Positions 401 through 32,406 of a stretch of 39,317 bases of DNA are shown here, piece after piece. The DNA comes from a virus: the IMG/VR virus record IMGVR_UViG_3300042430_001943, positions 1-39,317 of that record, one strand, 5' to 3'. How positions within the stretch are numbered: position 1 is the stretch's first letter; each line of letters begins with the position of its first letter. Made by a program: the position numbers and the translations under genes. Under the pieces are notes generated by a model, which was not told the origin of the DNA, made no database searches, and was given only the letters and a program-made list of their open reading frames with translations.

Positions 401-775
401 ATGGAAGATAGTTACAAGAATTTATTAGACCAATACCCATTTATTAGCTATCTGACCTACGGAGGTAATGACTACATTGGCATTGTACAAAACGCAGATG
501 AGATCATCACTACAATCTACGATTTTTCAGCTCTACGCACGCTAGATCAAAAAGAACGTTTTTTGTCGCTGGCAGATCAGTGGTGGTGGGAAAGTAATAG
601 GCTAGTGCCTATCAATGTATTTCTAAAATTAGATTGGGTAGAGTTTAGACCCTGTTTAAAAACATTCAACAGCAAGGACGTTCTTATACAGCACGGCCCT
701 TACGTTAGTCTAAAAGAAATAGCTCAGAAACGCAGTAAGCGCCGTAGTATTACACTGATTCGCAAAGTAGGTTAG
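401..775 (+). CDS. Conserved T4-like phage protein of unknown function
   Basis: This is the only gene I accept on the plus strand (124 aa). It is rich in aromatic residues (DQWWWESNR near residue 60) and ends in a basic tail (QKRSKRRSITLIRK). I recall similar proteins in T4-like cyanophages but know of no assigned function. No good Shine-Dalgarno is visible, but a perfect late promoter lies upstream, so it is probably expressed late. It converges with the HNH gene and overlaps its end by four bases. Confidence 0.75.
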   Translation: MEDSYKNLLDQYPFISYLTYGGNDYIGIVQNADEIITTIYDFSALRTLDQKERFLSLADQWWWESNRLVPINVFLKLDWVEFRPCLKTFNSKDVLIQHGPYVSLKEIAQKRSKRRSITLIRKVG

Positions 776-1427: not shown

Positions 1428-2018
1428 CTATGATTGCGTTTGTTGTTCTACTAATAAATTCATATTAACGACTACAAGTTGTGCGTAGGAAACGGCATGG
1501 GCACGTTTGAAGTAGTATCCATCATCCGCAGGTTTAGTCCACACATCAGCCGCAACATCTCGCCAAGTCTTACCAATTAAATGTCTTTTAGCTGGACGAA
1601 TAACTGCTAGGAACATAGCCAGTCTAGGAATAGTATCCACAGGCTCAGGCATTTTAAGTAATGTATCATAGTGATTGTTAATGTGAATTAACTGCTGACA
1701 TATTGCCGGATCATATAATCTAGCCCAATCAGGTTCACGCATTAGTTCAACTAGATGTGCTTCATCCCTAACCTGTTTATATAAGTTTACATTAAGAAAG
1801 TCTAACTTCATATAACCACGCTCTTCAGCATCGTTATAATCTAAACTAGAGAATCCTGTAAACGGATCTGTAGGTATATCAGTAGCATAGACACCTGTGT
1901 TATGCTTGGTTAACTTGCCGTCACGAATAATACTAGCCGATGTAGTATCTAATACTGCCAATACCTGCTCACGATCAGCAAAGTCAATGTCAACGTCGGA
2001 CTTAAAACTTTTCAACAC
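1428..2018 (-). CDS. Short protein with DNA polymerase III alpha (DnaE/PolC) palm motifs
   Basis: At 196 aa it is far shorter than bacterial DnaE (over 1,100 aa), yet the order of C-family polymerase motifs is recognisable: SDVDIDFADR (7-16) like the PDxDxDF motif with two catalytic aspartates; HNTGVYATDI (39-48) like the HxAGV motif; GYMKLDFL (68-75) like the KxDFLG motif with the third aspartate; AVIRPAKR (138-145) like the LxRPGPM motif; and AHAVSYAQ (173-180) like SHAxAYA. The GTG start is set by AAGGA seven bases upstream. Polymerase activity is unproven; it could be a reduced nucleotidyltransferase or a binding module. Whether it counts as described depends on a search I cannot run. Confidence 0.6.
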   Translation of the reverse strand: MLKSFKSDVDIDFADREQVLAVLDTTSASIIRDGKLTKHNTGVYATDIPTDPFTGFSSLDYNDAEERGYMKLDFLNVNLYKQVRDEAHLVELMREPDWARLYDPAICQQLIHINNHYDTLLKMPEPVDTIPRLAMFLAVIRPAKRHLIGKTWRDVAADVWTKPADDGYYFKRAHAVSYAQLVVVNMNLLVEQQTQS

Positions 2019-2193
2019 GTAACTTTCCTTGAGCTGTCATAGGAGCATTGTCCTGTGCTAGATGTAAATTCTCTGAAATATATTCTGTACGGCGTTCTAC
2101 TTCTTCAATAGCAAACTTCACCAACAACAATTCAGTTTGTAGGCTAATTATCTCGCCCTTGATTTCATTCAATAATGCTACAACTTCTTCCAT
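2002..2193 (-). CDS. Small coiled-coil protein, unknown function
   Basis: A 63-aa acidic protein whose first 45 residues form regular heptads (LLNEIKGEIISLQTELLLVK), predicting a coiled coil. Its ATG overlaps the stop of the upstream gene (TAATG) and its end overlaps the DnaE-like gene by 17 bases, so the three are probably translationally coupled. It could be a partner of a neighbour, but nothing identifies one. Confidence 0.7.
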   Translation of the reverse strand: MEEVVALLNEIKGEIISLQTELLLVKFAIEEVERRTEYISENLHLAQDNAPMTAQGKLRVEKF

Positions 2194-2891
2194 TATAAGC
2201 CTGCCTCTTTAAGAATTTGTTTAACCCACTCTGTATCTGCCAGATAGTCTTGGAACCTACGTTGCCAAAAGTCCGGGTCTATCCACGGAAGAATGATAGC
2301 AATCTGTTCTTCAGTGAGTCCACTAAGAAATTCGACCCCGCTATCACAATTAAAAACAATCCAAGGACTAACACGACCATTGGCAATATGATGGCAAATC
2401 CTATTCTCATTGCCATATCTAAAATAGTCATTGAAGCTGGCAAGCATTTTAGTCTCATCTGTATATTCCTGCATTTCTGTTAGGGCACGTTCAATCGCAT
2501 CTTGAACTGCTTCTTTCTTAAGGTATGTGTGTAGATATTCTACATAGACCTTGTCATGACACCAATGGTCAAGTTTCTTATTTTCTTTAATCACATACTC
2601 AATGAACATACGCGGATTCACAGCACGTATAGCCACCATGTGACGACCAAACTTAACAAAGGCACTGTAGTAAGGACTGTCTACAAATTCCTTATAGCCT
2701 TTGAGTTTAGCTGAACCCTGTGTCATTTCATAAAATCGTAGATATGCCTGTAGCCCAAACTGTACACCAATTTCTTTTTCCTGTTGGTAACGACGTTTAG
2801 TTTCACAAAGATGCGCCGAAAGAGTAGATTCTTTACGAAACTCTTTATCGCAATATCTACACTTATAACTTGGACTTGACTTGTTTGTCAT
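2193..2891 (-). CDS. Phage protein with an N-terminal C2H2-like zinc finger
   Basis: YKCRYCDKEFRKESTLSAHLC near the N-terminus is a zinc finger. The rest is a helical region rich in Trp, Tyr and His without a motif I can name. I place the start at the internal ATG (2891; 232 aa), just before the finger; an upstream ATG at 2936 would add 15 residues inside the neighbouring gene. Similar proteins occur in T4-like marine phages, to my recollection without a function. The finger suggests nucleic acid or protein binding. Confidence 0.7.
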   Translation of the reverse strand: MTNKSSPSYKCRYCDKEFRKESTLSAHLCETKRRYQQEKEIGVQFGLQAYLRFYEMTQGSAKLKGYKEFVDSPYYSAFVKFGRHMVAIRAVNPRMFIEYVIKENKKLDHWCHDKVYVEYLHTYLKKEAVQDAIERALTEMQEYTDETKMLASFNDYFRYGNENRICHHIANGRVSPWIVFNCDSGVEFLSGLTEEQIAIILPWIDPDFWQRRFQDYLADTEWVKQILKEAGL

Positions 2892-3339
2892 CGAGCCCGT
2901 GTTTTCTTGCCAGGTCTGTAATATCTCTTTTATCATTGATTGCCGCTAACAATTCTATTTCATCTTGTTTAAGTTCTGGATAAAGTTCTGCTAGGAACTT
3001 TTCTGCTTTGTTATTGCCGCCTTCTTTCTTTTTACTAGCCTGCCAGTAGTGCTTTTGCTTGCCCATGCCGGGACTAACTGTAGAACATAGTAACCACTGT
3101 AGTTTAGGATGTTTGCCTAGATCAAAGAAGTTCTTATTTACACGTTCATTTGTGGCCATTAGATAGTAGGCCTGTAGATCATTACTACCTTCTACACTAG
3201 CACCATAGCGCAACATTAGATACGTGCTAAACTGTTTACGTTCTTCATCAGTGAACTTATCATAGTACTTACGATCCTTACGATCAAAGGCCGCCATTTC
3301 ATTACCTATGTAAAGCGGACTGTTAAAATCTGTGGCCAT
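2863..3339 (-). CDS. Conserved T4-like phage protein, possibly gp62-like
   Basis: A 158-aa protein with a helical core (FSTYLMLRYGASV, LQAYYLMATNERVNKNFFDL, HPKLQWLL) and a C-terminal segment resembling a helix-turn-helix (DITDLARKHGLDDKQVKSK). Size and helix pattern recall the small clamp-loader subunit gp62 of T4-like phages, but the usual partner gp44 is not next to it, so I give no symbol. It overlaps the zinc-finger gene downstream. Confidence 0.6.
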   Translation of the reverse strand: MATDFNSPLYIGNEMAAFDRKDRKYYDKFTDEERKQFSTYLMLRYGASVEGSNDLQAYYLMATNERVNKNFFDLGKHPKLQWLLCSTVSPGMGKQKHYWQASKKKEGGNNKAEKFLAELYPELKQDEIELLAAINDKRDITDLARKHGLDDKQVKSKL

Positions 3340-4288: not shown

Positions 4289-5005
4289 TTAGTTCCAGTT
4301 AATAGTAAGTTCGTTAAGAGTCTGTAAGAACTCTTGGTGTGCCGCCAACGCATTATGGTTATTGTTTTTGGCAAGACCGTAAGGTAAATCCCAAGGGCCA
4401 GTATCTTCCCAAATAATATCTCTACCCTGCCAATCTTTATGTTTCATTGGACCCGGTATGAATACATAGGGTATATTATTTTTCTCTAATAGATCTAATC
4501 CGCTTTGAAGGTAAAAATAACTTTTTGCTTCTAATAGTCCTATATCAAACAGCTGGCTAGTATAATGTTTAATTGCTGTTTCTTTTTCTTTGGTTAGGTC
4601 ATAGCAGTCTGTCATTTTTGAACTAACAGTATTATTAAGTTCGTTATAGTTCTTAGTTAATCTGGCATATTCAAATTGACCTAAGGGTATTTCAAATCTA
4701 TCTGAACTAGTAGCAGCCACAACGACATAGTCAGGTTTGATTTTTACTGCTTCTTCAATTTGTAGTCTAATAAAAAAATTAGTTGCGCCTGGACTGGCCA
4801 AATTGATATAATCCCATTGTTTATCTACAGCATATAGATCAACAAAATTCACATTGTGTGAGTAATTAAACTCTGCCATTTCATCTAACACACTAGCAGT
4901 AAAATCGTAGGTATCAAATTTTGGCCAGTCACTGCCCTGTATCTCTCGGTACTTAAAATAACTAGTAGTTAAAAAACTACATCCACAGGCTACTAAGGTT
5001 GTCAC
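4289..5005 (-). CDS. SGNH/GDSL-like hydrolase
   Basis: The start GCSF block (ACGCSFLTTS) carries the nucleophile serine expected in SGNH esterases, a DYVVVAATSSDR stretch follows the second strand, and NHNALAAHQEF near the end offers the usual Asn/His pair. The GTG at 5005 is preferred because it overlaps the uvsW stop as GTGA and has AAAGG ten bases upstream; a TTG at 5011 is too close to that site. The substrate is unknown; phages use such enzymes for deacetylating glycans or as virion parts. Confidence 0.65.
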   Translation of the reverse strand: MTTLVACGCSFLTTSYFKYREIQGSDWPKFDTYDFTASVLDEMAEFNYSHNVNFVDLYAVDKQWDYINLASPGATNFFIRLQIEEAVKIKPDYVVVAATSSDRFEIPLGQFEYARLTKNYNELNNTVSSKMTDCYDLTKEKETAIKHYTSQLFDIGLLEAKSYFYLQSGLDLLEKNNIPYVFIPGPMKHKDWQGRDIIWEDTGPWDLPYGLAKNNNHNALAAHQEFLQTLNELTINWN

Positions 5006-6459
5006 TGCCAATCTACCTTTTCAACCACAAACGGATAGTTTGCTTCGTTGTAAAATTTCTTACGTGTTGTAATATGCCGTTTGGCAAATTTACATGTTGA
5101 TGTTACGTCCCAGATCTGAACAAAGTCTTTATCTTCTGCTTTACGAATACCACGTCCAATGCTTTGAATAACCCTGACAAAACTCTTACCAGGTTCGATA
5201 AGTACAAGATTAAAAATACGAGGAATATTAATACCCACTGCCGCAACACCGTAAGTGGCCACAGCAACCACGTCATCACTTGTGGCAAACTCATCATAGC
5301 TTTCTTTTCTATCATCTGCTTTAGTTCCCCCAGAAACAAACACAGCACCTCTAATCTTTTCAATCAATGCCTTACCTGGTGCTATACGATCAACTAATAC
5401 CAATGTGTTGCCTGTCTTGCGTATGCTTTCTACCAGCTGTGCGATGTAGTCTAGTCTACCTTCTGTTTCTAATAGATAGCGTAACTCGCTTTGATAGTCC
5501 TTGTACTCTACATGATCAATTAACTGTAGTATATTCACATGACAGTTGGCCAACACACCCTGTTCTTGTAGTTCACTAGCACTGAGTTTACCTATCACAG
5601 GGCCAAGACTACACAGTAGACTAACCTGCTCATATGGCTCTTTGGGTATGGTACCAGTTAGGCCCCAACGAATTGGTATGTGTGACATTACTCCAGTGAG
5701 CAAGGTCTTAAGCGCATCTGCTTTGGCCATGTGTACTTCGTCAACCATTACACAGACAACACCCTCAATGAACTCACCGATAGTAACATCTGCTTCACCA
5801 CCTTTGGTATTCTTTAATAGAATGTTTAGACTCTGCCAAGTACAGATAGTATGTGTACGACCAAACTCTTTACGATCACCAAAGTATACGCCAACGTCTA
5901 GGCCTAGGTTAATATAGTCTGCTTCTGTTTGTGTTACTAGGCTTTTGTTTGGTACAATGACGATTGTACGCCCATAGGCTTCACAGCTATAACTTAGTGC
6001 GGCTGTCATGATTGTTTTACCAGCACCTGTGGCAATTTCTTGTATACACTGTGGATTGGTTAAGAAGTTATTGACAATGTCAATTTGATAGTCACGTAGG
6101 GTAATAGGCTGTCCTACCATTGGGTGTTTCTCGGGCCATACCTTGTGTGCGAATGTACTCTCTGTTACCTGTTGGAAATCAAACTGTGTACGATAATCTC
6201 TAACATCTTCAATTTCAATGTTATAACCACGACTGTCTAAATAGGGTATAATGTCATTGAGTAGATTAATGTATGTGCTACCGCCCATTTGGAAGTACGC
6301 TACCTTACCATCCCAACGACCCAAACGAACTGCGGGCAAATATCTAGCACCAGGTATTTCATATTTGAACTTGTTACTGAGTTCTTTACGTTCGTGTAGA
6401 TCTAAGCCTTCAATCTTTACGTTCACTTCATCTTTAATTAATAGTCTAGCTGTGGCCAT
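5002..6459 (-). CDS. uvsW: UvsW-type DNA/RNA helicase
   Basis: A superfamily 2 helicase of 485 aa, close to T4 UvsW (about 500). It has an N-terminal domain of about 110 residues, a Q-like LRDYQIDIVNNFL, Walker A ATGAGKT (142-148), a DEVH box, GLTGT, and a C-terminal half with QSIGRGIRK (motif VI). UvsW in T4 unwinds branched DNA and R-loops, driving the switch from origin- to recombination-dependent replication and rescuing stalled forks. Its ATG overlaps the stop of the HARP-like gene upstream and its end overlaps the SGNH gene. Confidence 0.95.
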   Translation of the reverse strand: MATARLLIKDEVNVKIEGLDLHERKELSNKFKYEIPGARYLPAVRLGRWDGKVAYFQMGGSTYINLLNDIIPYLDSRGYNIEIEDVRDYRTQFDFQQVTESTFAHKVWPEKHPMVGQPITLRDYQIDIVNNFLTNPQCIQEIATGAGKTIMTAALSYSCEAYGRTIVIVPNKSLVTQTEADYINLGLDVGVYFGDRKEFGRTHTICTWQSLNILLKNTKGGEADVTIGEFIEGVVCVMVDEVHMAKADALKTLLTGVMSHIPIRWGLTGTIPKEPYEQVSLLCSLGPVIGKLSASELQEQGVLANCHVNILQLIDHVEYKDYQSELRYLLETEGRLDYIAQLVESIRKTGNTLVLVDRIAPGKALIEKIRGAVFVSGGTKADDRKESYDEFATSDDVVAVATYGVAAVGINIPRIFNLVLIEPGKSFVRVIQSIGRGIRKAEDKDFVQIWDVTSTCKFAKRHITTRKKFYNEANYPFVVEKVDWQ

Positions 6460-7711: not shown

Positions 7712-9331
7712 TTAATCTAATCCTGTGATCTCACCTTTAGAATTGATACTGATCTTTTCTGCGTTTGGTCGTTCTGGTAAGCCTGGCATGGTCATAATGT
7801 TACCGCAGACTGCTACGATATACTCAGCACCCGTACATAGTTTTAACTCACGCACTGTTAAGACATGTCCTTCAGTTGCGGCTAATTTATTAGCGGGATC
7901 ATCACTGAAACTGCTTTGTGTTTTAGCAATACAAACAGGATAATGTCCATAATCTCGTTGTAGTTCTTCTAAATGTTTAGTGACCTTGGCATCCATAGTT
8001 ATATGGTAAGCACCGTAAATTTTACGAGCTACTTGCTCAATCTTATCGCACAGTGTATCATCATCTTCGTAGGTCAGCGCCATCTGATGTTTTGATCGAT
8101 CAATAGCAATAACAACTTCGTGTGCTAGGTCTGTGGCACCATCGCCACCATTAGCAAAGTGTGTACATTCAACTGCTTCAATGTCAAATGTTTCTTTGAT
8201 GTGCTCAATTAATTCCGCAATCTCAAGGTCAGTATCATCTTTAAAACGATTAATAGCAACTACACAAGGCAGGTTATACCATGTCTTAATGTTGGCTATA
8301 TGCTTATCTAGGTTGTCGTAGTTACCTTGATGTTTAACGGCTCTAACTGTTGCTACAAGCACTACTACGTCAGGTTTAAGACCGCTTTTACGACACTTAA
8401 TGTTAATAAACTTCTCAGCACCCAAGTCAGCACCAAAGCCTGCTTCAGTTACTACGTAGTCAGCTAACTTCATAGCCAGCTTAGTAGCAATAACACTGTT
8501 ACAACCATGTGCTATGTTGGCAAATGGACCACCGTGTACTAGCGCAGGAGTGCCTTCTAAGGTCTGTACTAGGTTAGGTTTAACGGCTTCTTTTAGTAAT
8601 GCGGCCATAGCACCATGTGCCTTAAGATCTTTAGCTGTAACAGGCTTACCGTCTTGTGTGTAGCCTACAGTGATCTTACCTAAACGCTTTTTTAAGTCCT
8701 TGAAGTCGTTGGCCAAACATAGGATAGCCATTACTTCTGACGCCACTACAATGTCAAATCCTGACTGTCGTGTAACGCTGTTATGGGCTCCCAGACCTAC
8801 ACAAACGTCGCGTAACGCACGATCGTTCATGTCGCTTACACGTTTCCATGTGATGTTGTTAGTGTTTAAATTGAGCCTGTTACCCCAATGTAAATGATTA
8901 TCTATGAGGCTAGCTAGTAGGTTATGAGCTGATGCGACAGCATGGAAGTCACCTGTAAAGTGTAGGTTAATGTCTTCCATTGGTGCTACTTGCGCATAGC
9001 CGCCACCAGTTGCTCCACCTTTCATACCAAACACTGGACCTAGCGCAGGTTCACGTAGGCATACAATTGACTTGTAGTTTAACTTACGTAGGCCATCTGC
9101 TAGTCCAATAGTTGTGGTAGTTTTACCTTCACCTGCGGGAGTCGGAGTAATAGCTGTTACTAAGATTAACTTGCTATCTCGACCAGGACGGTCAGCAAGT
9201 GCTTCTATGTTTAGTTTAGCTTTCCTACTACCATACACTTCTAACTGTTCGTCTCGTACATTAATAGAACCGGCAACGGCTGTAATTGGTAGTAGGTCTG
9301 CTGATTGATTGATTTGAATGTCTGTTTTCAT
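7712..9331 (-). CDS. fhs: Formate-tetrahydrofolate ligase
   Basis: Joins formate to tetrahydrofolate with ATP, giving 10-formyl-THF for purine synthesis and other one-carbon needs. The family P-loop [13 protein letters not shown] (62-74) is intact, as are GGAxGGGYAQVxPME, [11 protein letters not shown] and [14 protein letters not shown]. Length is 539 aa against about 555 usual, with no sign of damage. It stands between its own terminator and four tiny membrane genes. No strong Shine-Dalgarno precedes the ATG, but [11 protein letters not shown] is a normal N-terminus. In a phage it counts as an auxiliary metabolic gene, likely supporting nucleotide supply. Confidence 0.95.
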
Positions 9332-22407: not shown

Positions 22408-23835
22408 CTAAAAGTTATACTGTAGTTGAACACGTAAAGCGTCTGCTTTAAAGTTAGCATAGTCTTGTTTTACTATTGTAGTAGACGATGCTCCAGTTAC
22501 TAAATTGCTACGATTCATATGATGATAGTAAGCCACAAGTTCAACTTCTGGCGCAATTTGCCATTCAGCACCTGCTTCCCAGTCGTTAACTTTATTCATC
22601 GGTGAGTTAGTTTCTGCTTTTGACGCACCATCAAAGTATTGCCATCTAACAAATGGAATTAGTGTACCATCAGTATCGCCAACTTTGAAGTGATCAATTT
22701 TATACATAGTTTGAATGTAGCCACCGTTCAAGTTAGTTTCTTTAATAATACCATCAGTACTAGCAGTAGTATCTAAGCCAGGAGTTTTGCCCCAGTTCCA
22801 CTCACCTTGTAGACCAAACGGTTGTGGGTACATCATAAAACTTACACCCATACGTTCGTCTTTGAATCCAGTGGTGTTGCCTGGTTCTAATGTTGGTGTT
22901 TTAGTTGCGTAAACGTTGTTGCCCATATTTCTTCTATACGCACTACCTGTTCTTACATACTTGCCTGTATAACCTTGTACACCAGCTTCGTATATTTGGC
23001 CGCTTTCTGTTTTCCATGGGTAAGTAAGACGTGCTACTGTGTGGTAATTATCATTACGATCTTGTTGGTTAGCACCTTGACCGTTATACACACCAATGCC
23101 AAACATACCGTAGTTTCCTGAATGTTTTAATCCTGCATCTTGTATTTCTTTAAACAGCTTTTGTATATTATCAGGTGTGTAGTAGTAGAACGCACCTAAA
23201 TCACGTTCATCACGCACCGCACTATTAAATGCGTCAGCACGATCAAGTGCTAACCGATTTTGTGAAGATTGTAAATTCTCAAAGCCATATGGTACTTTAC
23301 TTTGGCCTACACGTACACGATGTACTTTGTCTTTGGTTAGATTCACGTCACCGTAAGCATCACGTAGTTGAGCAACGTTACCTGTGGTACCTGCTGTACT
23401 AGCAAAGTCGGGTTGAATATAGTAATCTAAACGATCACCAGCTGAACCAGAAATGATCACACGTGCTCGACGGATAAGAAAGTTTTTGTCTTGATCAGCA
23501 AGAGAGTTTTTATTACCTACAGATCGATCTGACCAAAGGTTGACTCCTTCGTCACCACTAAGCATAGTAGTATTGCGCACTTGTAAATAGCCACGAATGT
23601 TCATTTTACTAGCCGCATGTACAGTAGTGTCTTTTTCTTTTTTAGCAGCTACTTTTTCTCCGCTGTGTCCTTTGGTTATAAGTGCGCCTTCTTCTTCTGT
23701 AAGTACACCCTTCATAACTAGTGCGTTAACAATGTCGCTAGTGCTGTCGGCATGCGCTTGCTTTAATCCTGCAACTGATACTGCTAGTGCTATCACTACA
23801 TAATACATTATTGATTTAATCTTTTGTATGGTCAT
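22408..23835 (-). CDS. Outer-membrane porin of the phosphate-selective O/P family
   Basis: A 475-aa protein with a signal peptide (to about AHA-DST, residue 29), then a coiled-coil-like 40-residue stretch and a 16- to 18-strand barrel. Family signs are LIRRARVIISGSAGDRLDYY, VRVGQSKVPYGFE, LDRADAF and the terminal Phe (LQYNF). OprO/OprP porins pass phosphate or polyphosphate in Pseudomonas. AAGGGG precedes the ATG. A PhoB-like direct repeat lies upstream. Selectivity cannot be read by eye, so the phosphate role is by family only. Confidence 0.88.
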   Translation of the reverse strand: MTIQKIKSIMYYVVIALAVSVAGLKQAHADSTSDIVNALVMKGVLTEEEGALITKGHSGEKVAAKKEKDTTVHAASKMNIRGYLQVRNTTMLSGDEGVNLWSDRSVGNKNSLADQDKNFLIRRARVIISGSAGDRLDYYIQPDFASTAGTTGNVAQLRDAYGDVNLTKDKVHRVRVGQSKVPYGFENLQSSQNRLALDRADAFNSAVRDERDLGAFYYYTPDNIQKLFKEIQDAGLKHSGNYGMFGIGVYNGQGANQQDRNDNYHTVARLTYPWKTESGQIYEAGVQGYTGKYVRTGSAYRRNMGNNVYATKTPTLEPGNTTGFKDERMGVSFMMYPQPFGLQGEWNWGKTPGLDTTASTDGIIKETNLNGGYIQTMYKIDHFKVGDTDGTLIPFVRWQYFDGASKAETNSPMNKVNDWEAGAEWQIAPEVELVAYYHHMNRSNLVTGASSTTIVKQDYANFKADALRVQLQYNF

Positions 23836-23968: not shown

Positions 23969-25180
23969 TTAGAAGAATAAGATAGCACCTGCTGATACTG
24001 AACGTGATTTACCTTCAGCACCATTTTGTGCTTCTGATTTAACGTCTGAGTATTCAGCAACTAGATTAACGTGTTTTGTAAGTGGGTGATAAGCACCAAC
24101 TGTCCACATTTCGTTTTTCGAAACTAATGCGGTAGCTGTTTCACCACTATTACGATCTAGTTTACTTTGACCCCAGCTTACGCCAAGTTTAGTAGCTGTA
24201 GGCAATGTGTATGTACCTTGAACGTATCCGCCGTTTGAATCACGACGGCGACCAGTAGTATCAAAACCATCAGCTAATTGTAGTGTACGGCCAATACCTT
24301 TACCATCAAAGTAGTAAGCAGTTAAACCATATGGGCCAGCAGCCAAGTTTGTACCAACGTCCCAAGCATAAGCGCGGTCATCTGCTGCAGAGCCAGTTAC
24401 ACCTTCAACTTTTTGTGAAATAGCACTTGACCATACTTTAGCAGCGATAGGACCTTCTAATGAGTATGATAGTTTACCTTCAAATGCTGGTTGAGCACCG
24501 CCACGGCCTGTTGAAGTTGCTGAAGCAGCTTGTACACCCGCAGTCACAGCACTTAGGTCAGCTGTTTGAGCATTCCATGCTTGTGTTACACCAGCCGTAA
24601 AGCTAAAGCCATTAAAGTTTGGTGATGTGTAAGCAATTTGTGATTTCCAATCAGCGTACATGAAGCCAGTACCAATACGACCCAATGTTGTTGTGTTACC
24701 AGCTAGTGCGCCAGCACCAGAACCTACACCCAACAATGTCATATCATTTAAGATAGCATCACTAGCGAAAATGCCTAGGTCTTTACCTAGTTTTACGCTA
24801 CCCCATGATTTGTCACCAATGGTTAAAAATGCTTGACGATTTTCTTGGTTAGCGCCTTGATCACCAGCCGCTGTAGTTGAAGCGCCTGGATTAATTGCGA
24901 TAGTAAAACCGATGTCTAAATCATTTTGACGTGATTTACCAGAAACTGATAATACGTTTGGTAATAAACCAGTTGTAATATTTGATTCATTACGTTGGCC
25001 TGTGCTGTTAGGACCACCAAGGCCACCAACTACTACATCACCTGTACCGCGTGTATTAGTATAGTAAGCGTTTACCACGCCACCAATGTCTAATGTCCAG
25101 TCACCTGCTGGGATTTGAATGCCAGCGTTAGCTGTAGAGTACATACTTGCTAATAGTGTTGCTAATAATAATTTCTTCAT
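23969..25180 (-). CDS. General Gram-negative porin
   Basis: A 403-aa protein with a signal peptide cleaved after TANA (residue 19), then WTLDIGGVVNAYYTNT, SRQNDLDIGFTI, NRQAFLTIGDKSWGSVKLGKDLG and a final strand SVSAGAILFF with the terminal Phe needed for barrel assembly. This matches the Porin_4 type common in betaproteobacteria. GAGG precedes the ATG, and a perfect T4-type late promoter is 62 bases upstream, followed by its own terminator. The phage therefore probably makes it late. Confidence 0.9.
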   Translation of the reverse strand: MKKLLLATLLASMYSTANAGIQIPAGDWTLDIGGVVNAYYTNTRGTGDVVVGGLGGPNSTGQRNESNITTGLLPNVLSVSGKSRQNDLDIGFTIAINPGASTTAAGDQGANQENRQAFLTIGDKSWGSVKLGKDLGIFASDAILNDMTLLGVGSGAGALAGNTTTLGRIGTGFMYADWKSQIAYTSPNFNGFSFTAGVTQAWNAQTADLSAVTAGVQAASATSTGRGGAQPAFEGKLSYSLEGPIAAKVWSSAISQKVEGVTGSAADDRAYAWDVGTNLAAGPYGLTAYYFDGKGIGRTLQLADGFDTTGRRRDSNGGYVQGTYTLPTATKLGVSWGQSKLDRNSGETATALVSKNEMWTVGAYHPLTKHVNLVAEYSDVKSEAQNGAEGKSRSVSAGAILFF

Positions 25181-25856: not shown

Positions 25857-26954
25857 TTATTTAAAAAAAGGAATAAAGTCAGCGAGCCTACGTGGTGGTA
25901 GTTTAAAATCTTTATGTCCTGTTGCTTTGATAAATCTACGTATTTCTTGCTCATATCTACGTTGAATATCTTTCTGTGCGTAAGGATACCAAACACCATT
26001 TTGAATATTAGTGTAGTCATGCTGTATACGATAGCATAAACGATCTTTAATATTACCCAAACGTCTGTGCTGTGTAATTGAGTTATCAAATAATAACCAA
26101 TCGCCTTCGTTTTCATACCAATGATCGTAGGTGTACTCAGGTACAAATAATTCTTTGTTAATACGAGCAAAGACTTTATCACTTTCTTTCTTGGTCATGC
26201 CTTTGATACTCCACACTGTGTTAACACTATAGTGTAGACCTTTGACTCCGCCTGGGCTAGTCATGATCATTGGAATTTCTGTATCATCATATGGGCACAT
26301 GTTAAGATTCATAATGATGTCTTGTTTTTTGTTTAGTCCAGGGCAGATCTTACCCGGAGTAAATCTATGTAGGACTATCATTTCATCTAACTCACGGCGA
26401 AAACTATCCGGCACTGATTCGTAATAGTCAGTTGTGGTCAGGAATCCTGTGGCACTGCCTACTACGTTTTTGGCCGCTAGTAAACTAACACCTGGAGTAA
26501 ACGTTAATGTACCACTTTCGTTACTGTGCCACAACAATTCACCTTCAGCAAACATACCCAATGGATTGCCGTTGGCATCATATCCACCCTGTACTCGTGT
26601 AATATCGTAGCCTGTATCTGTGTGCTCTTGCGCACTAATACAGCTACGTATCACTGTACGATCTAAACTATCAATTGACTTGTCATCTTCCAATGCCAAG
26701 GCAATAATAAGATCCCATGGTTGTTTATACTTGTTGATAAAGTAATTTTTAGTACCAAAACGTTGAGCACCTAACATGTTTGTCAGTTCAATTTGACGCT
26801 CTTTGGTTATATTGGCTTTTCTAAAAACAGTTACAAGGTTCTGTAAATGTTGCTGGCCAATAGCTAACCACTCTTCGTTGGTAATGTTATTAAGATCTAA
26901 GTCATCAATGATAACTCCAAATCTACCTAACCCTGGGATTTTAGTTATTTTCAT
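25857..26954 (-). CDS. TauD/TfdA-like oxygenase with a changed metal motif
   Basis: A 365-aa protein with the fold pattern of 2-oxoglutarate/Fe(II) oxygenases: ELLWHSNESG (139-148), LTFTPGVSLLAA, FLTTTDYY and WLLFDNSITQHRRLG (distal His 296) with Arg at 305/309 for 2-oxoglutarate. The family HxD is H143-S-N145 here, so the usual acidic iron ligand is Asn. The spacing of the two His (153) matches TauD. It may be an altered or inactive oxygenase. It stands 4 bases from ahcY. Confidence 0.75.
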   Translation of the reverse strand: MKITKIPGLGRFGVIIDDLDLNNITNEEWLAIGQQHLQNLVTVFRKANITKERQIELTNMLGAQRFGTKNYFINKYKQPWDLIIALALEDDKSIDSLDRTVIRSCISAQEHTDTGYDITRVQGGYDANGNPLGMFAEGELLWHSNESGTLTFTPGVSLLAAKNVVGSATGFLTTTDYYESVPDSFRRELDEMIVLHRFTPGKICPGLNKKQDIIMNLNMCPYDDTEIPMIMTSPGGVKGLHYSVNTVWSIKGMTKKESDKVFARINKELFVPEYTYDHWYENEGDWLLFDNSITQHRRLGNIKDRLCYRIQHDYTNIQNGVWYPYAQKDIQRRYEQEIRRFIKATGHKDFKLPPRRLADFIPFFK

Positions 26955-26958
26955 AATC

Positions 26959-28245
26959 TTAGTACCTATATGTTTCTGCTTTATATGGACCTTCTACTCT
27001 AACGCCAATGTAGTTAGCTTGATCCGTTGACAACTCTGTTAGTTGCGCACCAATTTGTGCTAGGTGTAGTTTAGCTACTTTTTCATCTAGGTGTTTAGGC
27101 AACAAATGAATACTACCAGTATTGTAGTCTTCCCAGTTTTGGAACATTTCAATCTGTGCTAGCACTTGATTGGTAAAGCTGTTTGACATAACAAAGCTAG
27201 GATGTCCTGTACCGCAACCTAAGTTTACTAGTCGTCCCTTAGCTAGAACAATAATCTTACGACCACTTGGCATGGTCACATGATCTACCTGTGGTTTGAT
27301 TTCATCCCACTCGTAACCAGCAATACTAGCAATATCAATCTCGCTGTCAAAGTGACCAATGTTACATACAATAGCGTTGTTCTTCATAGCCGTCATATGA
27401 TCGTGTGTGATAACATTGATGTTACCTGTGGCTGTTACAAAGATGTCTGCTTTGTCTGCGGCATAGTCCATGGTAACAACCTTGTAACCTTCCATTGCGG
27501 CCTGTAAGGCGCAGATTGGATCTACTTCAGTTACCCAAACTTGAGCTGACAGAGCACGTAGACTAGCGGCTGAACCTTTGCCTACATCGCCATAGCCTGC
27601 TACCACAGCAATCTTACCAGCAATCATAACATCTGTAGCACGTTTAACAGCATCAACTAGGCTTTCACGACAACCGTATAGATTATCAAACTTAGTTTTA
27701 GTCACTGAGTCGTTAACGTTAATAGCACGCAGGTGGAATTGACCTTTGGCAATTGCTTCGTTAATTTTGTGTATACCAGTTGTGGTTTCTTCTGTCACTC
27801 CACGGATATTACCTAATAGGCCCGGGTGGTGTTTGTGTATATAATAGGTTAGATCATGTCCATCATCTAATAGCATATTAGGTGTCCAACCATCTGGACC
27901 ATGTAGGGTGCGTTGAATACAATCCCAGTATTCTTCCTCTGTTTCACCTTTCCAAGCAAACACAGGAATACCCAGGTCAGCTAAGGCAGCCGCGGCATGG
28001 TCTTGTGTACTAAAAATATTACAACTACTCCAACGCACTGTTGCTCCTAGCGCGATCAGAGTCTGTACAAGTACCGCAGTTTGAATAGTCATGTGTAGTG
28101 ACCCTGCGATGCGAGCGCCTTTAAGTGGTTGTGATTCTTTGTATTCTTCACGTACTGCCATTAGGCCCGGCATTTCCGTTTCAGCAATGGCTATTTCTTT
28201 ATGACCCCACGCCGCAAGTCCAATGTCTTTGATTTTATAATCCAT
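26959..28245 (-). CDS. ahcY: S-adenosylhomocysteinase
   Basis: Splits S-adenosylhomocysteine to adenosine and homocysteine with bound NAD, relieving product inhibition of methyltransferases. A 428-aa protein starting [16 protein letters not shown], with [22 protein letters not shown], the NAD loop GYGDVGKG (217-224), and ending [12 protein letters not shown], as in bacterial enzymes. GGAAG precedes the ATG. The window holds at least four methyltransferases and one radical-SAM protein, so it fits as a recycling enzyme. Full length, no damage seen. Confidence 0.95.
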
Positions 28246-28246
28246 A

Positions 28247-28918
28247 TTATCTTCCAGTTAACGGAAAAGTATTGTTTAGATACTCCCCAAATTGATTAAA
28301 ATATTCGTCACACTTATCGAGTGACTTTGATGTTCCCCATGTTACATGGTGGGGTAACCATTCAAATCCTACAAATTCAAATATAGGTTTGACTGGTTGT
28401 ACTAACGCTTCGGGGCTGCCTAATACCTGTGTTGCCATACTAGGCAGGCCACCAGTGGTAAAACTAAACACTACTTGCTTACCTTTTAAATGCGGCTCGA
28501 TATGAAATTTATCTCCACCGGCATCGGTTACAGTAAACACATAATCATCTATAAAAACAGTTTCAATATACAGCTTTAGTATAGCAGGTATTGACCAAAC
28601 ATATATAGGCGTTTGAACATACACCAGATCTGCTTTTTGTAACATTTCTAGTTCATTTTTAGAAAAGTCACCTAGCAATCCTGCTTGTCGAGCATTGCCA
28701 TAATTATTACTGTACACTGATCTATATTTACGCTCTGAATCTGGTCTCGGTGTTTTATACAAGATTTCAGAAGATTCAGTAATAGCATCCTTGCTGGCAT
28801 GTAGATCTAAAGTTTCAACTGTATAGCCCAACTCAGCGAATCTAGCATTGGCCATTTTAAACAATTCACCGTTGAGGCTCTGTTGATTTGGATGTACTAA
28901 TATACTGCGTACTATCAT
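28247..28918 (-). CDS. Flavodoxin-fold NAD(P)H oxidoreductase (MdaB/KefF-like)
   Basis: A 223-aa protein. [15 protein letters not shown] at the start is the phosphate-binding turn for FMN or [26 protein letters not shown] and VFSFTTGG follow in family order. These enzymes reduce quinones or flavins in the cytoplasm. It ends two bases before ahcY and could supply electrons to the neighbouring desaturase, though that is guesswork. Confidence 0.8.
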
Positions 28919-28939
28919 TATGTTTGAATATCCGCAATT

Positions 28940-29809
28940 TTAAAATCCATTATCAATCTTTGCTCCTCTTTTCTCTGTAAAATATTTTAAAAATTTAACT
29001 ATGTACACGCTTAAATCAAATTCAAACCAACGAACTTTATGTCCAGTTTTTAAACTATATCTCATGCCATGATGATTATTTTGTATAGCTGTTGGATATA
29101 TACCTAATGTTAGGTAATAAAAAATAATATTATTATACGATGTATCCGGAGTATTAAAGTTTCTATAGTTTGTCGGCAACCAAACATGGCCAGTGATACT
29201 AGCAAACGGAGATATTAAACTCATTAAGAATCTACCCATAAACACTATTTTAAATAAGAATATTGGACAGACAAAATATAAAACGATCCAATAAAGTACA
29301 GTCAGCCAATTTGAATATTCTTCAATAAAGAAAGTCCAAAGATCATCTAAAATATTTTTATGTACTTCGCGTTGTTTCTTAAAGAAGTTATCTGCATCTG
29401 GATATTCTGTTTTTTCTTGATAGATATAGTTAATAGGACTCAGTAAACTCATATTGTACCAATGATTACGCCAATTAGAGCAGTCTTTGTTTCCTTGGTC
29501 GCTATACATATGATGATTTTTATGTATTAGGCATAGGGTTGTTATTGGTCCCCAGCCATTTTCTACAGTGGCCAAGAAAGAAGTAATCTTATAACCAATT
29601 CTGGTAGTATCTATTTCATACAGAGCATGTCCACAGCACATATGAACAAAGCAATCATTTAAGGCCACCGTGTAGATTAACGCCAACGGATACCAATACC
29701 ATTGCTCACTAAAGTGTGTGATGGTATCGTACAGTTCGTAGCCGCCCACTATCCACACAAATGTGACTAGCAATGCTGTTGTTAATGATTTAGGTGTGAT
29801 AGTAAACAT
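28940..29809 (-). CDS. Fatty-acid desaturase-like membrane di-iron enzyme
   Basis: A 289-aa protein with several membrane helices and three histidine clusters: HMCCGH, HKNHHMYSD and QNNHHGMRYSLKTGHKVRW. This is the acyl-CoA desaturase pattern (HxxxxH, HxxHH, xNxHH). The first cluster is weak and the second lacks a typical downstream DADPHN, so hydroxylase-like activity is possible. It would act on acyl chains in the inner membrane. Confidence 0.75.
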   Translation of the reverse strand: MFTITPKSLTTALLVTFVWIVGGYELYDTITHFSEQWYWYPLALIYTVALNDCFVHMCCGHALYEIDTTRIGYKITSFLATVENGWGPITTLCLIHKNHHMYSDQGNKDCSNWRNHWYNMSLLSPINYIYQEKTEYPDADNFFKKQREVHKNILDDLWTFFIEEYSNWLTVLYWIVLYFVCPIFLFKIVFMGRFLMSLISPFASITGHVWLPTNYRNFNTPDTSYNNIIFYYLTLGIYPTAIQNNHHGMRYSLKTGHKVRWFEFDLSVYIVKFLKYFTEKRGAKIDNGF

Positions 29810-29819
29810 ATTAAAATAC

Positions 29820-31733
29820 TTATCTGCCTATTAGTCCTAAGAGCTTTTTCTTACCGTGGAACACTGTATTTGTATCTATATGATTAATAAACAGGCCAAT
29901 CATCGAATGTACGCTGTTATTTTGGAATCCACCTGCTTTCTTATAGCTTATTCTAGTTAGGCCCTGCCACTTAGCACATCCAAAGTTAAATGAGTTAATG
30001 GTTATGTCACGGTCTTGTTTGATAATACTAGATGGGATCATATATTTTTGCTGTAGGTATCCTATCATATACGTTACAAACGTTTCGTCTGAGAACGCTA
30101 GGGCAACAAAGTACCAACCGCCATAGACCTGTTCACCAGCTACTTCAAATGTACAGGGAACATCAGGGTTATTAATAATTTCCTGCCAACGTGCCAGTAC
30201 CTTATCTTTGTATCTAGACTTTAAAAAAAACTGTTCATAGATGTCGCGTATGATCATGCCGTGATCTGCGGGCATAGATATTTGTATGAAGTCTAGGGTA
30301 TTTCTATAAAAGCCTCCCTGTACAAACAAATGATACAGGCTATTACTTAATATCATTTGTAGATAGTCATCTTTGGTAAACGTATGTCCACCTACAACAA
30401 CTTCTCTATCAGAATCTTCTTCTACTACTGCCCAACCTTTGTTTTTAGCTATGGTTTCAATACCATACTTGGCTCTATAGGCATAGGCATAAGCAGGTGT
30501 TTCTGGTAGTAGGATCCATTCAAACCACTGTACACTTAGATTATAACTGCCCAATACATCTAGTTCGTAATAGTATTTTTCTAAACTAATACCAGGTAGG
30601 CCCATGATCATTTCAACATACACAGGCATTTGTTTATCACGTGCCAGTGGTTGAAACACAGCCAGTTGTTTTTCTAGGCTAATGTTTTGACGATCAATGT
30701 TTTCTAGTATCTCATCGTCGAGTGTCTGTAGGCTTAGTTTAAGTTCTTTGGTTAGACTTAGTGAATTGTCAAAGTCAATACGCAGTATATCTCTAATAAC
30801 GTCTAGCTTGTTTTCTGTTTTAGCAAAGCCACCATAGCCAATCTTAAACAGTTGCCCTGTTTCTTTTTTACGTTTGATTAGGTAAGTGATAATGTCAATG
30901 TCACGTTGACCAAAGATGCCAAAGTTAGCATCAGCAAAGTATAAGAATGTAAGATCAAATTGACTTACAGCATCAATGTCTAACTTAACGTTGTCAATGC
31001 TTTTCTTAATAACAGTTGTAGCAGTACCGCCACCCCAATCACAGTAGGTACAACCGTAGGGGCATCCACGAGTAGTTTCAATTACGCACAGCAACAACGA
31101 TCTAGGAAAGTGATGGCGTTGGAATTCAATAAACGCAGTAAGTTCAGTGTACTGGCTGTGTAGAGCACTCCAATCATACTGAAACTGTTTCTTATCACGA
31201 TGCGCCATAGTCTGCTTACTAATTTTAATGTTTCTGCCCTTGCTTGGGTAGCGTACATCTGTAACCATATCCCAATTGATTTGGCCATCGCTGTAATTGT
31301 CCAGCAGTTCGTTAAAGCACAGCTCGCCGTAGCACTCACCTGGCAGACTAGCATCTAAGTACGGATGTTCTTTAAACCAATTGCTATCGTGTTTAAAGTA
31401 TTGATGAGGACCACCACTGATGATCACACATTTAGGAAAGGTCTGTTTGACCCATGCGGCTATTTCGTAGGCTAGGTTATAGTTCCAAACATACAGACTA
31501 ATAGCAAACACATCAGGTTTAGCATCAGTTAATAGTTGTTTGATTTTATCTATGTTGTCTGAACTATAGATGTCAGCATAGCAAGGATACCATGTCCATT
31601 CATCACTACGTTCACCGTATTGTTCATAGTAGGTCTTGGCACTGGCCCATAGGTATGGTAACCAGATTTCACCGCTGAATCTAGGAAAGTTACAGACTAC
31701 AATTGTTTTTTTACGTAGGATTGGTAAAGACAT
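29820..31733 (-). CDS. B12-binding-domain radical-SAM protein
   Basis: A 637-aa protein. An N-terminal Rossmann-like region (TDAKPDVFAISLYVWNYN, CVIISGGPHQ) fits a cobalamin-binding domain, then CPYGCTYCDWGGG (Cys 224, 228, 231) is the 4Fe-4S/SAM motif, followed by a TIM-barrel stretch (LTFLYFADANFGIF, LKLSLQTLDDEIL). The CDWGG extension is a subgroup trait. The ATG at 31733 is preferred over the GTG at 31748. Such enzymes often transfer methyl groups or rearrange carbon; the substrate is unknown. Confidence 0.88.
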   Translation of the reverse strand: MSLPILRKKTIVVCNFPRFSGEIWLPYLWASAKTYYEQYGERSDEWTWYPCYADIYSSDNIDKIKQLLTDAKPDVFAISLYVWNYNLAYEIAAWVKQTFPKCVIISGGPHQYFKHDSNWFKEHPYLDASLPGECYGELCFNELLDNYSDGQINWDMVTDVRYPSKGRNIKISKQTMAHRDKKQFQYDWSALHSQYTELTAFIEFQRHHFPRSLLLCVIETTRGCPYGCTYCDWGGGTATTVIKKSIDNVKLDIDAVSQFDLTFLYFADANFGIFGQRDIDIITYLIKRKKETGQLFKIGYGGFAKTENKLDVIRDILRIDFDNSLSLTKELKLSLQTLDDEILENIDRQNISLEKQLAVFQPLARDKQMPVYVEMIMGLPGISLEKYYYELDVLGSYNLSVQWFEWILLPETPAYAYAYRAKYGIETIAKNKGWAVVEEDSDREVVVGGHTFTKDDYLQMILSNSLYHLFVQGGFYRNTLDFIQISMPADHGMIIRDIYEQFFLKSRYKDKVLARWQEIINNPDVPCTFEVAGEQVYGGWYFVALAFSDETFVTYMIGYLQQKYMIPSSIIKQDRDITINSFNFGCAKWQGLTRISYKKAGGFQNNSVHSMIGLFINHIDTNTVFHGKKKLLGLIGR

Positions 31734-32406
31734 AAAGAGCCAGTCCACCGTTCTCGCTGTTAAACCAAGCTAGGGTGTCTACAAACTTATTCTTAAAACT
31801 AGGTGTTACTGATTCAAATTTTAAATCATTACACATCTTTAAGACCTGTCTGTTGGTAAAGCTCATTTCAAACGGATTATTTTCTTGATCGTGATATAGC
31901 GTGTGCGAGTTATATTTGATCTCAAAGAACTTTTTAAGTATCTTGCCATACTTATTGTACACAGCAAGAACTAGTTTACCGCCAGGTTTTAATAGACCCT
32001 TTAGTTTAGCTAGTGCTTGTTGGTACTCAGGGATGTGATGGAGAACTCCACAACAGATAATTAAATCATATTTCTTAACAGTACGAAACTCTAAGAAATC
32101 TTTTTTAATCCATTTAACATTGGCTATGCCATTTGTTTTAGCAAACTCCTGAGCATAGTCAATACTATCACTAAAGTCAACTGCGGTAAGTTGACTGTTA
32201 GGATAGTGTATGGCAAATAGATTACTTACTAGGCCTGTGCCGCAACCAACATCTAATACATCGTAGCCATCAACCATAATAGCATCTATCTCTTTTAAAT
32301 AGATGTTGTGGATCCCTTGTTCTTCGTAGAACTTGAGATCTTCCCAAGAGTACTTGCCTGGAAAGTTAATGCGACTGTAAAATTGTTTGATTGCGTCTGT
32401 GGTCAT
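31711..32406 (-). CDS. Class I SAM-dependent methyltransferase
   Basis: A 231-aa protein. DVLDVGCGTGLVSNL is the SAM loop, LTAVDFSDSID motif II, and YDLIICCGVLHHIPEYQQAL then LKPGGKLVLAVYNK complete the fold. It overlaps the radical-SAM gene, so the two probably serve one pathway; relatives act on sugars, quinones or lipids. Confidence 0.88.
   Translation of the reverse strand: MTTDAIKQFYSRINFPGKYSWEDLKFYEEQGIHNIYLKEIDAIMVDGYDVLDVGCGTGLVSNLFAIHYPNSQLTAVDFSDSIDYAQEFAKTNGIANVKWIKKDFLEFRTVKKYDLIICCGVLHHIPEYQQALAKLKGLLKPGGKLVLAVYNKYGKILKKFFEIKYNSHTLYHDQENNPFEMSFTNRQVLKMCNDLKFESVTPSFKNKFVDTLAWFNSENGGLALYVFTNPT

Follow-up and report, generated by a model that had tools for sequence, protein, structure and literature searches.

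What does a phage do with a bacterial-type replicase gene cut down to fewer than two hundred codons? The question is raised by a virus contig from IMG/VR (IMGVR_UViG_3300042430_001943), analysed here as one stretch of 39,317 nucleotides, the window. On its minus strand, in the same block as a UvsW-like helicase gene, lies an open reading frame in which the initial annotation had recognised the catalytic blocks of DNA polymerase III alpha (Pol III alpha) packed into under a fifth of the normal length. The frame exists exactly as proposed, from a GTG start codon at 2018, and its product is 196 residues long (Table 1), as compared with 1160 residues for E. coli DnaE. It was left to establish whether this protein really is a reduced C-family palm, and what such a part could contribute in the neighbourhood of T4-like replication genes. 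As set out below, the protein proves to be one half of a polymerase divided between two genes, and it is referred to, together with its homologues, as the C half; the product of the partner gene is called the N half.

Table 1. Features of the window (positions on the 39,317-nucleotide stretch)
Feature	Position	Strand	Basis or remark
phrog_11637, small convergent gene	401..775	+	regular downstream neighbour of the C half
HNH-like protein, 206 aa	772..1392	-	motif YHVDH...NLRILEANENSSKG
C half of split minimal Pol III alpha (196 aa; catalytic palm and shortened fingers)	1428..2018	-	profile, fold, motif and conservation evidence
Codons H174...Y178 = DnaE H760 (proposed steric gate) and Y764	1485..1499	-	alignment, conservation; H760 role PMC8485763
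Codons R141-P142 = DnaE R639/P640	1593..1598	-	alignment, conservation
Codons K71-L-D73-F-L75 = DnaE K553/D555/L557, third catalytic Asp	1794..1808	-	alignment, conservation
Codons H39-N-T-G42 = DnaE H511/G514, HAGGV block	1893..1904	-	alignment, conservation
Codons D8-V-D10-I-D12 = E. coli DnaE D401/D403/D405, metal-binding strand	1983..1997	-	alignment; all three Asp in 132/132 distinct homologues
Shine-Dalgarno-like AAGGA, 7 nt 5' of the GTG start	2026..2030	-	read from sequence
phrog_11058, conserved upstream neighbour	2193..2936	-	C2H2-like finger at N-terminus (below Pfam cut-off)
UvsW-like helicase	5002..6459	-	same replication/recombination block
Formate-tetrahydrofolate ligase	7712..9331	-	complete-looking by sequence
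Porin, phosphate-selective O/P family	22408..23835	-	PF07396, E=3e-40; signal-like N-terminus
Gram-negative porin	23969..25180	-	PF13609, E=3e-21; signal-like N-terminus
Run of metabolic genes	25857..31748	-

Homology to bacterial DNA polymerase III alpha

With the single window protein as query, sequence searches of Pfam (PF07733 included), NCBIfam and the PDB gave no C-family match, and the C-half profile matched no chain among the PDB sequences; profile-profile and fold comparisons were therefore needed. When a profile of 28 C-half homologues was aligned by hhalign to one of seven full-length DnaE sequences, the score reached 71.6 (P=95.7, E=9.3e-9); 100 column-shuffled C-half profiles averaged 16.3 and got no higher than 29.4, and the reversed profile scored 18.8. 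A search of PHROGs with the window protein retrieved phrog_11778, annotated as 'DNA polymerase' (E=2.8e-63, residues 5-193), and, more weakly, families of full-length DnaE.

The AlphaFold model of the C half, built with 53 homologues, was confident (mean pLDDT 91.1, pTM 0.81) and its fold matches the Pol III alpha palm: the best 11 matches in the PDB were Pol III alpha chains only (top E=2.8e-3, probability 1.00), and the first unrelated structure followed at a probability of 0.03. The TM-scores against Pol III alpha were low (0.30-0.43), the likeness being at the level of domains only, and such low overall values are expected if whole domains are absent. The window protein is thus homologous to bacterial Pol III alpha (DnaE), and the reduced C-family palm proposed at first is confirmed by profile and by fold. 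A chance resemblance to an unrelated protein, for which the empty Pfam, NCBIfam and PDB sequence searches might speak, was rejected as vanishingly improbable, since the shuffled controls stayed far below the real score and the top PDB folds were Pol III alpha throughout.

Catalytic residues and missing parts

The blocks KSDVDIDF, KHNTGV, MKLDFL, VIRPAK and AHAVSYA of the C half follow one another in the order of PDFDVDF, KHAGGV, VKFDFL, LFRPGP and SHSAAYA in DnaE, just as the initial annotation had it, and 12 of 12 motif residues align to E. coli DnaE in order and in local register (pairs in Table 1). All 12 are invariant in the seven DnaE sequences and in 28 diverse C halves. Across 132 distinct C-half homologues, D8, D10, D12, H39, G42, K71, D73, L75, R141 and P142 are kept in every one, and H174 and Y178 in 131, the remaining one having a gap.

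In E. coli numbering, D401, D403 and D555 form the triad on which the C family is built catalytically (PMC3919608), and the metal-binding triad of the C half, as read from the alignment, is D8, D10 and D73. This corrects the earlier assignment to D10, D12 and D73, of which D10 and D73 stand, whereas D12 lies one motif position off and gives way to D8. D12 itself, likewise invariant, is the counterpart of the DnaE-type Asp405, a further DnaE-specific invariant Asp that marks the DnaE groups and is replaced by Asn in PolC (PMC3919608). H174, for its part, aligns with H760, a residue that has been proposed to act as the ribose steric gate in E. coli Pol III (PMC8485763); the match suggests selectivity for dNTPs.

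Around these residues, much of DnaE is gone. The interval between D12 and H39 is 79 residues shorter than that between D405 and H511, at the site of the thumb, whose limits in E. coli DnaE are 433-509 and which there contacts DNA and the exonuclease (PMC4703070). Between P142 and H174, 88 fingers residues are absent relative to P640-H760, including the stretch 657-667, which touches tau in E. coli, where the clamp motif lies at 920-924 (PMC4703070). Of DnaE, nothing remains past the counterpart of the H174 helix, neither the fingers tip nor the clamp motif, and the chain stops 18 residues after Y178; the PHP domain, the OB, the tau-binding parts and the C-terminal domain are lacking as well. 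Finger residues that do not vary in DnaE, among them Y686-Q687-E688 and R709, are unmatched in the C half. The GRGS nucleotide-binding motif is missing from it too and is carried by the separate N-half chain.

A second gene carries the N half

PF07733 (DNA_pol3_alpha), the profile that the initial annotation had proposed as a check on the window protein, has no match on it and detects the N half instead: in 4 of 4 complete phage genomes searched, it found a separate gene above the Pfam cut-off. The N-half proteins, of 169-177 aa and with G-x-GRGS, terminate at EFLK, EFLN, EFLE or EFLR followed by the stop codon, directly before the PDFDVDF (PDxDxD) site at which the C half begins, and in the C half only about 7 residues at most precede the DxDxD motif. 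The N-half profile aligned to DnaE over E. coli residues 317-393 (P=96.6, E=6.2e-10) and matched DnaE chains of the PDB by sequence, and for its AlphaFold model (pLDDT 91.6) the first 15 PDB matches were all C-family replicases.

Both halves were present together in 14 of 14 long genomes, comprising nine phage records (141-490 kb, Vibrio phage 2.275.O being listed as partial) and five IMG/VR contigs with a C half (259-355 kb), always as distinct genes 11-237 kb apart, the 11 kb being in Slickus01. The N half is not on the window contig nor on its 122 kb near-identical relative, both of which are fragments; it is present on a contig of 338 kb, the C half of which shares 70% identity with that of the window. 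In a phage-wide tblastn search the C half was found in 90 records and the N half in 87, largely the same phages. The distance matrices of the two halves were correlated (r=0.69, with 0 of 2000 permutations as high), which fits joint inheritance and may only reflect shared phage ancestry. No fused N+C copy occurred among 171 C-half and 84 N-half loci, and even between very divergent phages neither half varies at the catalytic and nucleotide-contacting positions of its motifs. Rather than a self-contained mini-polymerase, the 196-residue protein is the C-terminal part of an enzyme encoded by two genes.

The N-half gene has a conserved neighbourhood of its own, different from that of the C half, in which the next gene is, as a rule, a small one that has the VxMRGxxVDME...NARGD block in common, and the one after it is GroES-like.

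Gene neighbourhood and the family-B polymerase

The C half is placed between the uvsX/uvsW group and the gp61/gp41-like primase and helicase genes, and 13 of 15 records have a DnaB-type (gp41-like) helicase gene on the strand of the C half, at a distance of 2-21 kb downstream. Its downstream neighbour phrog_11637 was found in 161 of 171 C-half loci, always convergent. In the lineage of the window an HNH-like gene stands between the two; because only 9 of the 161 loci have it, it looks like a recent insert of a free-standing homing-type endonuclease. A fixed partnership with an epsilon-like (DnaQ-type) exonuclease was also considered and rejected, such an enzyme being detected in only 6-7 of 15 records.

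A family-B polymerase (PolB) was present above the Pfam cut-off in all 14 long genomes and was not on the 122 kb relative of the window, a fragment. None of the 14 lacks motif A, as DxxSLYPS or in a close form, and YGDTDS (ADTDS in Phosso) is kept wherever it was read, the region lying outside the pieces read for Atu_ph07, SCTP-2 and Slickus01. The idea that PolB is inactivated and that the split Pol III is the real replicase was rejected on account of these retained motifs. In PA5oct (NC_071039.1, about 216-223 kb) the PolB frame loses homology directly behind YGDTD/S, and the homology is taken up again in another frame, of 379 aa, a pattern that an intein or a similar insert at this site would produce; the PolB of Atu_ph07 is also split over two frames.

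A C-family palm beside a T4-like PolB had been called unexpected in the initial annotation. The coexistence is real; the surprise had been anticipated, since Iyer et al. 2021 (PMC7824862) described a "minimal split Pol III" in RaK2-like (group 2.2) jumbo phages and a paper of 2017 had already remarked on CBB_328 as a truncated Pol III alpha (PMC5259590). Atu_ph07 has been reported with Pol III subunits (PMC6102473), and among the genes unique to one cluster of marine jumbo phages PF07733 was reported as the most frequent, occurring in 51.9% of its phages (PMC9123017).

Proposed mechanism and alternatives

We consider it likely that the C and N halves together make an active split nucleotidyltransferase or polymerase that serves beside PolB. 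Its physical assembly, catalysis and biological role, as we infer them, would be as follows. The C half would act as the metal- and template-binding part, and the N half (about 171 aa) would supply the GRGS motif; meeting in trans, they would form one Pol-beta-like palm site, with GRGS from the N half and D8/D10/D73 and the H174/Y178 helix from the C half, and the reconstituted site would add dNTPs to a primer end. The use of dNTPs is predicted because H174 matches the proposed steric gate. Synthesis would be weakly processive (distributive), unless a phage partner helps, since the enzyme lacks the thumb, the tip of the fingers, the clamp-binding motif, the OB and the parts that bind tau. As the gene lies in the uvsX/uvsW-gp61-gp41 block, primer extension or gap/repair synthesis is the most plausible role, and bulk replication would be left to the PolB replicase, with the split Pol III working alongside. 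A more specific version, in which the enzyme would be dedicated to extending primers, with its place between the gp61-like primase and PolB, and hence would form part of a replisome of two polymerases, one bacterial-type and one T4-type, is possible and is put forward only tentatively.

Several facts count against an active split enzyme: the thumb is absent, Y686-Q687-E688 and R709 are unmatched, an intact, apparently active PolB is always present, the DnaQ-type exonuclease is inconstant, and the N half occurs only in relatives with longer contigs than the window and its 122 kb relative. The two halves may instead assemble without being a polymerase at all, the palm fold having been retained for a structural or regulatory function in the replisome. 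The loss of the thumb, the fingers tip and the clamp- and tau-binding regions would suit such a role, as would the ever-present PolB and the want of any activity on record; no biochemical study of the split minimal Pol III was found in the literature searched, most subscription journals lying outside it. Yet in a non-catalytic scaffold one would look for the loss of at least some motif residues, and these are invariant in both halves; we regard a non-catalytic role as unlikely.

It is improbable, too, that the 196-residue protein acts alone, be it as a small nucleotidyltransferase, one of the functions suggested at first, or as a metal-dependent nuclease or phosphotransferase. One chain does contain all three metal-binding Asp together with the H/Y helix, and this chain is modelled with confidence by itself, but a stand-alone nucleotidyltransferase is disfavoured because the C half is without GRGS, the motif that completes the C-family nucleotide site and that is encoded elsewhere in the genome, in the N half of every long genome having a C half.

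Distribution and selection

Hardly any credit is due to the notion that the C half is the decaying rest of a DnaE captured from a host, or a decoy derived from one, the decoy having been raised by the initial annotation as well. A length of under a fifth of DnaE (196/1160) might suggest it; however, there are hundreds of intact copies, the catalytic residues are strictly conserved, the gene order is conserved, and the median dN/dS over 1307 C-half pairs (which are not independent) was 0.077, a value of purifying selection, and for this the C half is taken as a maintained protein and the remnant or decoy is rejected.

Identical copies of the window protein were found on five IMG/VR contigs, and one scan confirmed 551 relatives. 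Ninety phage records have a homologue over most of the length, all at less than 60% identity and, for isolated phages, at 52% at best. The carriers among those listed are mostly jumbo phages (RaK2, K64-1, 121Q, GAP32, CBB, PA5oct, Atu_ph07, Phosso, SCTP-2 and XacN1), and the 141 kb phage Slickus01 also has the C half. Among 84,980 bacterial and archaeal species, the family turned up in 13 contigs, all from metagenome-derived assemblies and likely to be misbinned phage DNA; with cellular matches so confined, the C-half family is essentially a phage family. Contigs of 153-335 kb with the C-half gene sit in bacterial bins, e.g., a Neomarinimicrobiota MAG, and are probably misbinned jumbo phages.

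Comparison with known systems and significance

The family is already known (described in 2021, held in PHROGs as phrog_11778 for the C half and phrog_11127 for the N half, and annotated in GenBank), and the window protein is a member from an uncultured lineage. Members of the split minimal Pol III include RaK2 F403_gp411, 121Q gp16 with gp56, Atu_ph07 gp074 and Phosso XYS97594.1. The window shares with these jumbo phages the sequence family, the length, the residues and the neighbourhood, and probably the coexistence with PolB, and differs from them in its uncultured lineage, in the HNH-like insert before the convergent neighbour and in having the N half off the window.

With E. coli DnaE, the split Pol III has in common the palm fold and, in order and register, the DxDxD strand, HxxGV, KxD, RP and HxxxY, but it consists of chains of ~196 aa and ~171 aa without the PHP, thumb, fingers tip, clamp motif, OB and C-terminal domain. 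In the split-intein DnaE of cyanobacteria, two distant genes encode halves that are spliced to a full-length protein (cited in PMC3919608). The phages resemble them in having DnaE encoded by two distant genes, whereas intein sequence is absent at the phage break, where the halves end with plain stop and start codons. The T4 gp43-type PolB of the same phages is, likewise, a replication gene of the same genomes, but its palm fold is unrelated and it is a separate intact gene with DxxSLYPS and YGDTDS.

New in the present study are the member from an uncultured lineage, the residue-level proof and the correction of the catalytic residues to D8/D10/D73, which, together with the exact split point, leads to concrete mutants and constructs. 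If the halves are active, their two chains, with about 370 residues between them, would make up an exceptionally small C-family polymerase, and one of the rare polymerases to have an active site shared by two proteins, maintained beside a family-B replicase. It would then become testable which parts of DnaE catalysis needs, and what reason hundreds of jumbo phages have for maintaining two polymerases that are unrelated.

Other genes on the window

Apart from the replication block, the window has two porin genes on this virus contig (Table 1). The run of metabolic genes that follows encodes a TauD-like dioxygenase, an S-adenosylhomocysteine hydrolase, a flavodoxin-fold reductase, a fatty-acid-desaturase-like protein and, judging by sequence, a radical-SAM-like protein, and is possibly a small biosynthetic island. 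The formate-tetrahydrofolate ligase gene adjoins the uvsW region.
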